Assembly (NCBI RefSeq): GCF_000970205.1
Contig: NZ_CP009512.1
Location: forward strand, 62,001-126,000
DNA: 64,000 nucleotides
Source: Methanosarcina mazei S-6
Lineage (GTDB): Archaea; Halobacteriota; Methanosarcinia; Methanosarcinales; Methanosarcinaceae
Direction: 5' to 3'
In this document: one piece after another, positions 221-46,633 of the stretch
How the letters are laid out: each line of letters begins with the position of its first letter
Position numbering within the stretch: the stretch's first letter is position 1
Notes under the pieces: model-generated
Told to the model about the DNA's origin: nothing
Seen by the model: only the letters and a program-made list of their open reading frames with translations
The model's database searches: none
Made by a program: the position numbers and the translations under genes

Positions 221-295
221 TAGCGGGGGATGGATTCGAACCATCGGTCTACGGGTTATGAGCCCGTCGGGATCTCCTGGCTACCCCACCCCGCT
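221..295 (-). tRNA. Initiator tRNA-Met (CAT), copy 1
   Basis: The reverse strand folds into a full 75-nt cloverleaf without CCA. The acceptor stem is AGCGGGG/CCCCGCT with discriminator A, the anticodon loop CTCATAA carries CAT, and the T arm reads GATGG-TTCGAAT-CCATC. The A1-U72 pair and the three consecutive G-C pairs closing the anticodon stem (GGG/CCC) are marks of archaeal initiator rather than elongator tRNA. It is identical to the second copy, 63 nt away. No separate TATA box is visible in the gap, so the two may be cotranscribed from the promoter upstream of copy 2. Confidence 0.96.
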
Positions 296-358
296 ACGGG
301 GTTTGCTGATTATTTTACAAAAGGATTATTATCATGAAGAGATGCGAAACTTTCCTTA

Positions 359-433
359 TAGCGGGGGATGGATTCGAACCATCGGTCTACGGGTTATGAG
401 CCCGTCGGGATCTCCTGGCTACCCCACCCCGCT
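359..433 (-). tRNA. Initiator tRNA-Met (CAT), copy 2
   Basis: This is an exact 75-nt duplicate of the tRNA at 221-295, and the next five bases at the 5' side are also shared. It has the same initiator features (A1-U72, GGG/CCC anticodon stem, CAT anticodon). It is the promoter-proximal copy: a TATA-like box lies about 65 bp upstream of its 5' end. Confidence 0.96.
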
Positions 434-492
434 ACGGGGCTTTATACTTCAGGCATTATGCCCGAGACAGCTATCAGAACATACTAACGATT

Positions 493-506
493 ACTTATAT
501 ACTTTT
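493..506 (-). promoter_or_regulatory. TATA box of the tRNA-Met pair
   Basis: On the minus strand this reads AAAAGTATATAAGT, a good archaeal box A. Transcription would start about 25 nt downstream, near 473, giving a leader of roughly 40 nt before the first tRNA. Inferred from sequence only. Confidence 0.55.
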
Positions 507-674
507 CGCTCACCTGTAATCTTGCAGGAAAATCCGGATGACGGTCATGTCCGATTTAAAAACTTCGCCAAACTCCTCTATTTTACCCGTCTTTATTTCA
601 GGTTTCATTTCTAATAGCTGTTTTTCAGGCTTTTTCGGGAAAGATATTTGAAAGCTGAAGTCCCACGTTATATT

Positions 675-866
675 ATGACCAGATGTTTGTTTTGCGGGGC
701 TTATTGTGAAGTAAAATGCGGTGTCTACTGTGAAAGCTATTCAGGAAACACGGAAGAAAAAGAACATACGGAAGACGCAAACATACTTGGGTGTACCCAG
801 ATAGGCACCTCGTATATCTGCGACAGCTGCCTCAAAGATCTTAAAGAAGCTCTCGGGCTCTTATAA
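675..866 (+). CDS. Cysteine-rich microprotein (63 aa)
   Basis: A small protein that I do not recognise. Counting from the ATG, cysteines sit at about residues 4, 7, 11, 15 and 19, then near 40, and a final C-x2-C pair near 47-50 (CDSC). This spacing suggests a small metal-binding fold. A TTG at 648 would add nine residues, but neither start has a convincing Shine-Dalgarno. The protein is acidic in the middle and has no membrane segment. It stands alone between the tRNA promoter and a convergent lipoprotein gene. That it is expressed is an inference from the dense, ordered cysteines. Confidence 0.55.
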   Translation: MTRCLFCGAYCEVKCGVYCESYSGNTEEKEHTEDANILGCTQIGTSYICDSCLKDLKEALGLL

Positions 867-962: not shown

Positions 963-1796
963 TCAGAAAACATCAACATTAAGTATAAATCTGTCTTCGG
1001 TTCCTGTTTCATTTTCCCAGGGCCTTTTATATACCGCTGTTACTTGCTGGGCGCCCTCGGAATCCGCTTTAATTTCCCACTCACGGACTCCTCCAGCACC
1101 AACAAGAGGTGGAGTATCCTCCTGAGAGTCTGGGGAATAAAATGTTCCATTGATATCAGTGAGATTAAGTCCCTGGCTCAGGTTTAATTCCCACAAATAG
1201 CCTGTAGACGGGTTATCCTTAAGTCTAAGATAGAAACTCTCGCCCTATTCGATATTTATATTTGTCCCATTACCAGCTTCTGTTACTACCTGCTGTCCCG
1301 GTGGCATAGAGTCCGGCGTCTCCTTAAGGATATTATCGACAGTAAGTTCAAAAGATCCGGTCACTCCATTTACATTTACAGTATAATTTCCGGCTCTGAG
1401 ACCCTGGACTTCCAGGGGGATCGTTTCCCTGAAGCTCTCTATAGCCTGGGTGCAGATTGCATCTTTTGGACGCTTTGTCGTGATATTGATATTGAAGGTC
1501 TCTCCTTCCCTTTCGGTCTTTATTTCGTCAATCCTGGTGCATCCATCAGGCAGATAGCCTTCTGCTATTACATTTATCTGCACTGGAAAAGATTCCATAA
1601 TCAGAATATCAATACTCTCCACATTTGCCATACCGTAAGTGTATTCTATTTCAGTGGTGTTATTCTGCTCGTCCTCGACGTTTTCAACACAGCCGGAAAG
1701 AGCAACTATAAAGAATGTAAACAGGACTGCTGTCAATCTTACAGTTTTGACATGCCTGATACTTTTTATGTACTTTCCATCTATTCTTCCTTTCAT
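963..1796 (-). CDS. Lipoprotein with C-terminal chagasin (I42) domain, in-frame TAG at codon 184
   Basis: The reading frame is 277 codons plus a TGA stop, with one internal amber codon (complement of 1245-1247). Residues 1-183 hold a signal peptide ending in a lipobox (ALSGC) and a secreted beta-type domain. Right after the TAG the frame continues with GESFYLRLKDNPSTGYLWEL and then carries the three chagasin protease-inhibitor motifs: NPSTGY, GAGG and the RPW loop (YKRPWE). Chagasin domains normally begin a few residues before the NPTTGY loop, so the amber lies inside the domain. Either the TAG is read through (pyrrolysine in Methanosarcina) or this is a very recent nonsense mutation. The family inhibits papain-like cysteine proteases; the target here is unknown. 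Confidence 0.8.
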
Positions 1797-2036: not shown

Positions 2037-2834
2037 TCAGGATCCATCCTTTAATTCCTGAGCCTGGTTTTTATAATGGAGAATAAGCTCTTCCGCCCAT
2101 TTCAGAGAGGCAGGCTCGAAAGCCACGATACTTTCCTGATCATAGGCTCCTTTCCATGTGAGAAAATCTGCCATCATAAAATGCTCGGTTTTTGTAAGCA
2201 TAGCTATTTTCAGTTCATCAGTGCAAACAAAAAGCTGTCTGTTTTTCCTGGCAATATAAAGTTTCAGCTCTTCCCCAAAGTCTTTTTTTAACCTTTCATA
2301 AATTCTTTCTGTCACTATGAGTGTAATTTCAATATCTTCACCTTCGATTCTTAGAAATATTTCCGGGAATGCCGGATGAAATATTGAAGATAAAGACAAT
2401 ATTCTTTTTGATTTCTCTATGTTTTTCAGAAATACCGGGGAAGTCTCGAAAATTTTGTCAGGATCGGGTTTTACAAGAGAATATGGTTTTAATTCATTAA
2501 GTCTCTCAAGGAATTCAGGAGATAGATCACTGAGATCACGTTCCTGCCAGAAATTTTTATGCTCTTCAATGACCTCAAGAGTGTTAAGCAGAGGCTTCAT
2601 TTTTTCTACCAGAATTTCTGCCAGATGGGTAAGTCTGTATTCTTTATCATCCTGAATAATAAGAAATTCTTCCTTTAGCTTTTTAATCTGCGGAAGCATT
2701 CCTGTAGGGGTGACATTAAGAGTATCTACTATTTCTTCTATTGTCTTCCCTCCATCTCTGAGAAGTATTAAAAGGTCCTTTCTTTTCTGAGACATGAAGA
2801 GCAGGTCTATTAACATTCTATCCATTGTTTTCAC
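2037..2834 (-). CDS. Msr-type winged-helix transcription regulator (265 aa)
   Basis: The N-terminal 80 residues form a winged helix (KRKDLLILLRDGGKTIEEIV, then a recognition helix around TPTGMLPQIKKL). The remainder matches the FilR1/DUF1724 sensor region of the regulators expanded in Methanosarcina, some of which control methanol methyltransferase operons. Length fits the family. No methyltransferase operon is adjacent, so the target cannot be read from context. It is monocistronic and divergent from the phosphoribosyltransferase; the shared 450-bp upstream region is AT-rich. Family assignment is firm, regulon unknown. Confidence 0.82.
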   Translation of the reverse strand: MKTMDRMLIDLLFMSQKRKDLLILLRDGGKTIEEIVDTLNVTPTGMLPQIKKLKEEFLIIQDDKEYRLTHLAEILVEKMKPLLNTLEVIEEHKNFWQERDLSDLSPEFLERLNELKPYSLVKPDPDKIFETSPVFLKNIEKSKRILSLSSIFHPAFPEIFLRIEGEDIEITLIVTERIYERLKKDFGEELKLYIARKNRQLFVCTDELKIAMLTKTEHFMMADFLTWKGAYDQESIVAFEPASLKWAEELILHYKNQAQELKDGS

Positions 2835-43705: not shown

Positions 43706-45193
43706 TTACCCTTTAAGTTCCTTTACAATCAGTTCACGGGCTGTCTTTGCGTCCGCCGTGCCTTTTGTCTTTTTCATGACCTGTCCTACAAGGAAGTTCA
43801 GGGACTTTTCCGTTCCTCCAAGATAGTCCTGCACGGCAGCTTCGTTTTCGGCAATTGTTTCTGCAACAGCTCTGGTTACCAGATCGTCTTCGGCTTTGAA
43901 AAGGCCTTTTTCTTCTATGATCTGCGATGGGCTCTTTTCCTCATTTCCGTCCAGAATGGTACGGATGACTTCAACCGCAGCCCTGTCGCTGACCTTGCCT
44001 TCGGCAAAAAGTGTGACCAGTTCAACCATATCCGAGACCTTGAAGGAATTCTCCACTTCAGGGTCTTTTGCATGGATAAAGCCAATTGTCCTGCCGTCGT
44101 AAGAAGAGATTGCAAGGTCTCTATAGTTTAACTCTCCGAGGAGGACGTCAGCAGTCCAGGTAGCTGCAACCTTCGGGTCTACCCCTTTTGCGCAAACGCC
44201 TTCGTAGAAGTCGGCGAGCATAATCTTTGAGGTCAGGGCTCTTGCATGCATATCTGTGATACCGTACTGCTCCATGAAGCGTGCACGTTTGGCATCCGGA
44301 AGCTCGGGAAGGGTCTCTTTAATTGCGGGTATCCAGCCTGTAACGCGCATTGGCATGAGGTCAGGTTCACGGAAGTAGCGGTAGTCTTCTGCCTCTTCTT
44401 TTGTCCTCATGGAAATGGTTACTCCCCTTCCTTCATCGAAGTGACGCGTTTCCTGCGTAATTTTTCCTCCGCGGCGGATCACGTTTTTCTGGCGCATGAT
44501 CTCGTAGAGAAGTGCTCTTTCCACTCCTTTATGGGAAGAGATGTTTTTGACCTCAACCCTGGTCCCCCAGTGGACAGAAACGTTCGCGTCGACACGCATA
44601 GCTCCTTCAAGGTTTCCGTCAAAGACATCCAGGTATTCGAGGATGTTTCTGAACTTATCAAGGAATCTCCTTGCTTCTTTGGGACTCCTCATATCCGGCT
44701 CGGTAACGGTCTCGATCAGGGGCATGCCTGACCTGTTGTAGTCTATAAGGACACCTTTGGACTTTTCAATGCTCCCTATGTGTACAAGCTTTCCAGGGTC
44801 TTCTTCCATGTGAGCCCTTGTAATTCCTACCACATGCTCCCCGTCTTCTCCTTCGATCACGACTTTTCCTTTGCTAACAATCGGATAGTCGTACTGGGTG
44901 ACCTGGAAACCTTTGGGGAGGTCAGGATAGAAGTAATTCTTCCTGTGGAACTGGGTTTCTTCTGCAATCTCACCTTCAAGGGCAAGCCCCACTTTAATTG
45001 CTGCTTCCACGGCTTTTTTATTAAGGACCGGAAGTGCACCCGGCAGGCCGAGGCAGACCGGACAGGTGTGGGTATTGGGGGCCGCATTGTGATAATCTGT
45101 AGAGCAGCCGCAGAACATTTTGGTCTTGAGTTTGTTAAGCTGGACGTGGATTTCAAGCCCTATCCTTATACCGTCAGGGTTTTCATAGACCAT
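43706..45193 (-). CDS. gatB: Asp-tRNA(Asn)/Glu-tRNA(Gln) amidotransferase subunit B
   Basis: 495 aa. GatB binds misacylated Glu-tRNA(Gln) or Asp-tRNA(Asn) and, with ATP, activates the side chain for amidation. Visible are GLEIHVQLNKLKTKMFCGC with the zinc/Mg region (CPVCLG), FHRKNYFYPDLPKGFQVTQY, the GVLIDYNRSGMPLIE active-site segment, and the C-terminal YqeY-like tail domain. The ATG directly follows the gatA TGA, so the two are translationally coupled. Last gene of gatCAB. Confidence 0.97.
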   Translation of the reverse strand: MVYENPDGIRIGLEIHVQLNKLKTKMFCGCSTDYHNAAPNTHTCPVCLGLPGALPVLNKKAVEAAIKVGLALEGEIAEETQFHRKNYFYPDLPKGFQVTQYDYPIVSKGKVVIEGEDGEHVVGITRAHMEEDPGKLVHIGSIEKSKGVLIDYNRSGMPLIETVTEPDMRSPKEARRFLDKFRNILEYLDVFDGNLEGAMRVDANVSVHWGTRVEVKNISSHKGVERALLYEIMRQKNVIRRGGKITQETRHFDEGRGVTISMRTKEEAEDYRYFREPDLMPMRVTGWIPAIKETLPELPDAKRARFMEQYGITDMHARALTSKIMLADFYEGVCAKGVDPKVAATWTADVLLGELNYRDLAISSYDGRTIGFIHAKDPEVENSFKVSDMVELVTLFAEGKVSDRAAVEVIRTILDGNEEKSPSQIIEEKGLFKAEDDLVTRAVAETIAENEAAVQDYLGGTEKSLNFLVGQVMKKTKGTADAKTARELIVKELKG

Positions 45194-46621
45194 TCATGCC
45201 ACCTCCGGAGGTCTCTTGGTATGGTAATCGGTATTCTTCTCAAAAGTGTAAGCTGCACGCAGGACAGTTTCTTCGTCAAAGGGCTTGCCCATTATCTGAA
45301 GTCCTATCGGCAGCCCGTCCGTAAATCCGCAGGGCACGGAGATCGAAGGCACGCCTGCCAAGTTAATCGGGCAGGTGTTTATGTCTGAAAGGTAGAGGGT
45401 AAGCGGGTCTTCAATCTTTTCTCCGATCTTAAAAGCAGGGTTCGGCATGGTCGGAGCCATGAGCAGATCAACTTTTGAAAGGGCTTTATCAAAGTCCTGC
45501 TTCACAAGAGTCCTGACCTTCAGGGCTTTGAGATAGTATTTGTCATGATAACCTGCAGAAAGAGCATAGGTTCCGAGGAGAATTCTTCTCTTGACTTCTG
45601 TGCCGAAACCTTCAGCTCTGGTCTTTGAAACCATAGCATGCCAGTTTTCTCCGCCTGCTCTGAATCCGTAACGTGTTCCATCGAAGCGGGCAAGGTTTGA
45701 GGACGCTTCACTCATTGCAATTATATAATATGAGGCAAGGGCATACTTTATATGGGGCATTGAGACTTCTTCCCACGTCGCTCCGAGGCTCTCACATTTG
45801 TGTATTGCATCCCATACTGCTTTTTCTACGTCAGGATGGATGCCTTCCCCGAAGAATTCCTTCGGAACCCCTATTTTCAGGCCCTTCACGTCATCAACAA
45901 GAGCTTTCTGGTACTCGGTTTTGCTGTCAATTGAAGTGGAATCTCTTCTATCATATCCGGCTATAACATCCATCAGGACTGCTATGTCTTCCACGTTGTT
46001 TGCGAGGGGTCCAACCTGTTCAAGGGAATTTGCATAAGCCACAACCCCGTACCTTGAAACTGCTCCATAGGTCGGTTTAAGCCCTACAACCCCACAGAAA
46101 GATGCAGGACAGCGTACAGATCCGCCTGTGTCGGAACCGAGAGCAAAAGGAGCTTCTCCTGCTGCTACAACTGCTGCACTTCCACCGGAAGACCCGCCTG
46201 GCACTCTTTCAAGGTCCCAGGGGTTTGCAGTCGGCCCGAAATGACTTGTTTCAGTGGAAGATCCCATGGCAAATTCGTCCATATTGGTTTTTCCAAGGAT
46301 CACTGCTCCTGCAGAAAGAAGTTTCTCTATGACGTGGGCATTGAAAGGAGGGACATAGCCTTCAAGGATCTTCGAGCCACAGCTGTTTGGCAGCCCGACA
46401 ACAGAAATGTTATCCTTAATAGCAATCGGTACGCCTGCAAGAGGGCCTTCATGCCCTTCTTTATCGATCTTTTTTGCCTGCTCAAGAGCCTTATCGGAAA
46501 TCGTTAGATATCCGTTGATTTTGCTTTTTTTGATAACTTCAAGGTATCTGGATGTCACTTCTTCGGCTGAACTTTCTTTAATCTTTTCTTTAACCTGTGC
46601 AACACTCATCCATTTTGCCAT
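45194..46621 (-). CDS. gatA: Asp-tRNA(Asn)/Glu-tRNA(Gln) amidotransferase subunit A
   Basis: 475 aa. Amidase-signature subunit that releases ammonia from glutamine. The Ser-cisSer-Lys triad is present: [10 protein letters not shown] (Lys near 75), then [20 protein letters not shown] and [17 protein letters not shown] (catalytic serines near 150-175). A TTG at 46624 precedes the ATG; GAGGAG is correctly placed for either. It lies between gatC (9-bp gap) and gatB. Confidence 0.97.
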
Positions 46622-46633
46622 CAAAACATCTCC

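Follow-up and report, generated by a model that had tools for sequence, protein, structure and literature searches.

An in-frame UAG at a lysine position of a chagasin-domain lipoprotein gene in Methanosarcina mazei S-6: a probable case of recent, near-neutral substitution with ambiguous decoding

A gene of Methanosarcina mazei S-6 that encodes a putative protease inhibitor of the chagasin family, identified as such by its match to Inhibitor_I42, carries an in-frame UAG at codon 184, where most of its closest relatives encode lysine. The explanation that we consider probable is a recent and near-neutral substitution of this Lys codon, after which the UAG would be decoded ambiguously, giving partly a full-length product with pyrrolysine (Pyl) and partly a truncated one. 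A plain nonsense mutation, with the downstream domain in early decay, is a serious rival to this explanation.

The interrupted gene and its product

In the window (the whole 64,000-nucleotide stretch of DNA that was analyzed), the gene occupies 963..1796 on the reverse strand. A sequence-only reading had proposed that the frame runs past a TAG for 93 codons to a TGA at 963, and translation of 963-1796 (-) confirmed this: 183 codons are followed by the TAG (1245-1247), 93 further codons and the TGA. The read-through frame, from 1796 to 963 (-), is MKGRIDG...NINIE-TAG-GESFYLRLKDNPSTGY...LNVDVF-TGA, and the features at the locus are as follows.

963..1796 (-): full read-through frame, 277 codons plus TGA, with a lipoprotein signal, an N-terminal beta domain and a C-terminal chagasin domain
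1248..1796 (-): part before the TAG, 183 codons, with the lipoprotein signal and the beta domain (residues 52-151)
1245..1247 (-): in-frame TAG, codon 184; Lys, Asn or Ser in orthologs
963..1244 (-): part after the TAG, 93 codons plus TGA, nearly the whole chagasin domain with NPSTGY, GAGG and RPW
2037..2834 (-): HTH regulator with a FilR1_middle domain, the upstream neighbor, conserved in most ortholog loci

In the read-through protein, residues 181-274 match Pfam Inhibitor_I42 (PF09394) at 87.1 bits, the cut-off being 27.2 (E 9.5e-25), and a lipoprotein-type signal, LSGC, lies at residues 33-36 near the N-terminus; together, these support the identity of a chagasin-domain lipoprotein that had been read from the letters. 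By contrast, the 183-aa piece before the TAG gave no significant Pfam match on its own, and neither did its beta domain (residues 52-151), which is conserved in all orthologs. Both the frame and the alignment place the three loops typical of chagasins (NPTTGY-like, GXGG and RPW) after the TAG, as NPSTGY, GAGG and RPW within the 93-codon part, just as had been claimed. The domain as a whole lies almost entirely downstream as well, although the Inhibitor_I42 match begins 3 residues before the TAG.

Among solved chagasins, P. aeruginosa ICP, amoebiasin-1 and T. cruzi chagasin match by sequence. In an AlphaFold model, residues 52-151 are well predicted, and the quality is fair over much of the chagasin domain (mean pLDDT 74); a Foldseek search matched this model to EhICP2 and chagasin, with E 1.5e-8 and target TM values of up to 0.84. 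The M. mazei gene thus shares with the chagasin/ICP family (MEROPS I42; T. cruzi chagasin, P. aeruginosa ICP, amoebiasin) its sequence, its predicted fold and its three inhibitory motifs, and differs from it by an added N-terminal beta domain and lipoprotein signal and by the UAG interruption. None of the papers searched links chagasin with Methanosarcina. The model predicts strands at 179-182 and 187-194, and residue 184 falls in the gap between them, upstream of the inhibitory loops. Its counterpart in the solved chagasins is K, Q or V. Codon 184 is predicted to encode part of a poorly conserved beta-turn that does not belong to the inhibitory loops.

An arrangement of two separate genes was considered and rejected: all orthologs are fused, and the first in-frame start after the TAG is a TTG located behind NPSTGY, which leaves no plausible translational restart. 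Gene callers with table 11 would output either a 183-aa product or a pseudogene for this locus.

Several other features of the window were recorded. At 651-866 (+), convergent with the chagasin gene, lies an ORF for a small, cysteine-rich protein (about 71 aa) that matches no Pfam family. Tandem tRNA-Met (CAT) genes with equal Rfam scores lie at 220-296 and 358-434 (-), 138 bases apart, and an ORF at 258-614 (+), antisense to both of them, is probably spurious. At 43709-46633 (-), an amidase-family gene (gatA-like) and, after it, gatB share one reading frame; the TGA that separates them marks a normal boundary between genes.

Orthologs and codon 184

Most of 30 other Methanosarcina genomes contain a full-length or near-full-length ortholog that has no in-frame stop, with 58-78% identity over the aligned part. 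When these genomes were combined with further genome contigs, some of which belong to species already represented among the 30 genomes, 34 Methanosarcinaceae ortholog loci that have a codon aligned to position 184 were obtained, and this codon is open in 34 of 34; TAG occurs in 1 of the 35 loci, that of M. mazei S-6. Most members of the closest group use AAA or AAG here, the others AAT or AAC, and AGC is seen once; the 34 loci thus encode Lys, which prevails in the closest group, or Asn or, in one case, Ser. This answers the question, raised at the outset, of which residue stands there, and no homolog ends at the position of the TAG. The change from AAG to TAG needs a single A-to-T substitution.

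At the homologous end, the orthologs terminate with TGA in all but a few cases, and the FilR1-type regulator adjoins the ortholog in most loci with enough flank. Since the orthologs are open and this neighbor is conserved, the extension of the frame beyond the TAG is not fortuitous. Homology on both sides of the in-frame UAG, as expected of a UAG-containing protein, is thus present, whereas conservation of the UAG itself among orthologs, as seen in MtmB-type genes, is absent (1/35 loci). No relatives of the chagasin gene were found in viral contigs.

Elsewhere in the M. mazei S-6 genome, an intact chagasin lipoprotein paralog of 177 aa is encoded. In other Methanosarcina, chagasin paralogs with in-frame stops occur (G001:C1:902927, G009:C1:2228192, G019:C136:790, G023:C54:117440 and G028:C135:41743); the stops are mostly TGA or TAA, with one case of TAG plus TAA, and these paralogs are probably pseudogenes.

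Pyrrolysine machinery and use of UAG

The machinery for Pyl is complete in M. mazei S-6: a cluster comprises pylT (tRNA-Pyl, anticodon CUA) and pylS, followed by pylB, pylC and pylD, of which pylB and pylC were named from position and sequence, and pylD scores above its curated cut-off. From residue 185 to its end, PylS is identical to the deposited catalytic-domain structure 2q7e, which we take to be that of M. mazei PylRS. The genome also contains two mtmB genes with one in-frame TAG each. Given these Pyl genes, tRNA-Pyl(CUA) and the two TAG-bearing mtmB genes, UAG should be readable as pyrrolysine, and the earlier statement that Methanosarcina decodes it in this way is supported by gene content (pylS, pylB, pylC, pylD and tRNA-Pyl(CUA)). 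Some Pyl-encoding archaea reportedly read all TAG codons as Pyl, according to a report of 2025.

As a stop, UAG is rare, as had been stated. Among strongly coding ORFs of at least 100 aa, TAG closes 1 of 38 in the window, namely the chagasin gene, so that no other such ORF there stops at TAG, and 2 of 219 in 448 kb of sampled stretches, these being the chagasin gene and pylB; M. mazei pylB is known to end in TAG (PMC2933860). In M. mazei Goe1, TAA and TGA close 53% and 42% of the annotated ORFs, leaving about 5% for TAG (PMC11456600). In Pyl-using archaea, UAG serves both as a sense and as a stop codon, and a UAG introduced in uidA was read at approximately 20-30% in M. acetivorans (PMC2933860). 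The PYLIS element is not essential (PMC2933860); PYLIS_1 was not found downstream of the TAG in the chagasin gene, though both mtmB genes match it, and the 103 bases from this TAG onward fold no better than shuffled sequences and form no strong structure. A comparison of codon usage on both sides of TAG codons in the 448 kb and the two mtmB loci, a weak method that ranked neither the chagasin gene nor mtmB, revealed no second convincing sense-like TAG. A match to Rfam sRNA154 (165 bits; L073 803-936) lies near one of the mtmB genes, approximately 1.2 kb away from its PYLIS_1.

Selection after the TAG

The 93 codons after the TAG contain no further stop and no frameshift, the inhibitory motifs are intact, and 22 of the 23 columns that are invariant in 26 relatives have been kept, the exception being E194D. 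The sequence-only reading had argued that a domain behind a true stop should have decayed, and that its preservation therefore speaks for readthrough. That an undecayed domain proves obligatory readthrough is not supported, because the TAG is present in the M. mazei genome only and may be young, and because amino acid replacement after it is raised.

Substitutions were analyzed by pairwise comparison and by counts of private residues. On the terminal branch, pN rises from 0.069 before the TAG to 0.128 after it (bootstrap 95% interval of the difference, 0.006-0.121), and pN/pS is 0.40 after against 0.26 before, a difference that is not significant (-0.13 to 0.38). A comparison of dN/dS on the two sides had been proposed as a check; the ratio after the TAG stays below 1, as expected under continued constraint, but exceeds that before it. 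Residues private to the M. mazei lineage number 11 in 93 after the TAG and 3 in 133 before it (Fisher P 0.004, a somewhat optimistic value because this test was chosen after the first comparison had been seen), which indicates that the downstream part evolves faster. About half of these downstream residues lie in a variable loop (codons 211-232), and after removal of the loop, the count is 6 in 71 (P 0.07). None of ten relatives in which such a rise was looked for shows it; pooled, they have 27 private residues in 930 after and 33 in 1330 before the position of the TAG. Constraint on the C-terminal part is thus somewhat reduced in the M. mazei lineage alone; the relaxed selection that had been named as evidence against readthrough is found in part, and the evidence for a maintained function of the part after the TAG is mixed.

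If constraint is assumed to have been lost when the TAG arose, the ratios of 0.40 and 0.26 date the TAG to about the last fifth of the branch, over which the chance of no second stop is approximately 0.35. Under neutrality across the whole branch, 5.6 nonsense changes are expected and none is seen (chance 0.004), so that complete neutrality of the downstream part over the whole branch is unlikely.

Ambiguous decoding and its alternatives

The favored course of events would begin with a recent A-to-T change in the M. mazei lineage that turned the Lys codon AAG into UAG at a tolerant turn. Some ribosomes would insert pyrrolysine at codon 184 and complete the chagasin domain, while others would stop at the UAG and release a 183-aa lipoprotein without the inhibitor domain; constraint on this domain would then be somewhat reduced. 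We infer ambiguous decoding, and its partial efficiency, because the Pyl machinery is present and decoding of UAG needs no special signal. Near-neutrality of the change is suggested by the several residues accepted at position 184 and by the intact paralog, and as Pyl is a lysine derivative, replacement of Lys by Pyl would be conservative in backbone terms. The tolerant turn, this conservative exchange and the intact 177-aa paralog are what lead us to favor ambiguous decoding.

The alternative that survives best, possible though clearly less probable, is that the UAG mostly terminates translation, so that the lipoprotein made has 183 aa and lacks the inhibitor domain, and that the chagasin domain is in early decay. 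Replacement is indeed raised only after the TAG and only in the M. mazei lineage; an origin in the last fifth of the branch leaves a considerable chance that no second stop has yet appeared; an intact paralog is present in the genome; and interrupted chagasin paralogs occur in the genus. However, most private replacements either are mild (E to D, T to S) or fall in the variable loop, the inhibitory motifs are intact without a frameshift, neutrality over the whole branch is improbable and, with the Pyl machinery present, some readthrough is expected. Ambiguous decoding and plain nonsense differ mainly in the amount of full-length product.

An error in sequencing, or a mutation confined to the culture that was sequenced, would account for the presence of the TAG in one assembly only, yet is improbable: the assembly is a single contig of 4,142,816 bases with an estimated completeness of 99.97%, an A-to-T substitution is not typical of assembly errors, and the higher rate of replacement downstream of it suggests a TAG that is not brand-new. 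Least probable is that the Pyl residue or the readthrough itself is functional and selected or regulated, including the equally improbable switch by which the full inhibitor lipoprotein is made on methylamines when Pyl is produced and the 183-aa form alone is made otherwise: termination at the UAG, which lies at a domain border, would yield a cleanly delimited protein lacking the inhibitor domain, and condition-dependent reading of UAG is known in Acetohalobium arabaticum (PMC8211752), but the TAG occurs in 1 of 35 loci only, position 184 is variable and outside the inhibitory loops, the part after the TAG evolves faster and no PYLIS is found. Nothing points to a role of Pyl in the chagasin lipoprotein. 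Of the Pyl-containing secreted inhibitor first envisaged, the chagasin lipoprotein, the Pyl machinery and the open homologs stand, whereas obligatory readthrough is not supported.

Relation to known UAG-containing genes

The closest precedent under ambiguous decoding is Thg1 (tRNA-His guanylyltransferase) of M. acetivorans, described as having acquired a dispensable Pyl (PMC2933860, citing Heinemann 2009; PMC3639795). The two cases are alike in that a UAG is present in one species and a sense codon in its homologs, outside methylamine metabolism, with the Pyl thought to be neutral; in Thg1, experiment showed that Pyl is not essential for activity. The M. mazei gene differs in encoding what its sequence marks as a secreted lipoprotein, and in having an intact paralog of the inhibitor domain. 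With MtmB, MtbB and MttB, it shares an in-frame UAG in a Pyl-decoding archaeon, and two TAG-bearing mtmB genes exist in the S-6 genome itself. However, the UAG of those methyltransferases is conserved and catalytic and, in mtmB, followed by PYLIS_1, whereas that of the chagasin gene is not conserved, lies outside the functional loops and has no PYLIS.

Neutral UAG codons that occur sporadically in genes other than those of the methylamine methyltransferases have already been described (PMC2933860, PMC3639795), and such cases have been extended beyond Thg1 to other candidates (PMC3639795). Screens of M. mazei have yielded many candidates, among them 87 ORFs with read-through similarity (PMC1242214), and the chagasin gene may already be among these 87 candidates. 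In itself, the UAG of the chagasin gene is a minor case. It would nevertheless add a further natural example of a UAG that has arisen in an ordinary gene of a Pyl-decoding model methanogen. Downstream of the TAG, evolution is mildly accelerated, which suggests that the UAG may not be fully tolerated, and because close homologs have Lys at position 184, the gene offers a clean test of whether a UAG is tolerated as a sense codon or acts as a slow nonsense mutation.
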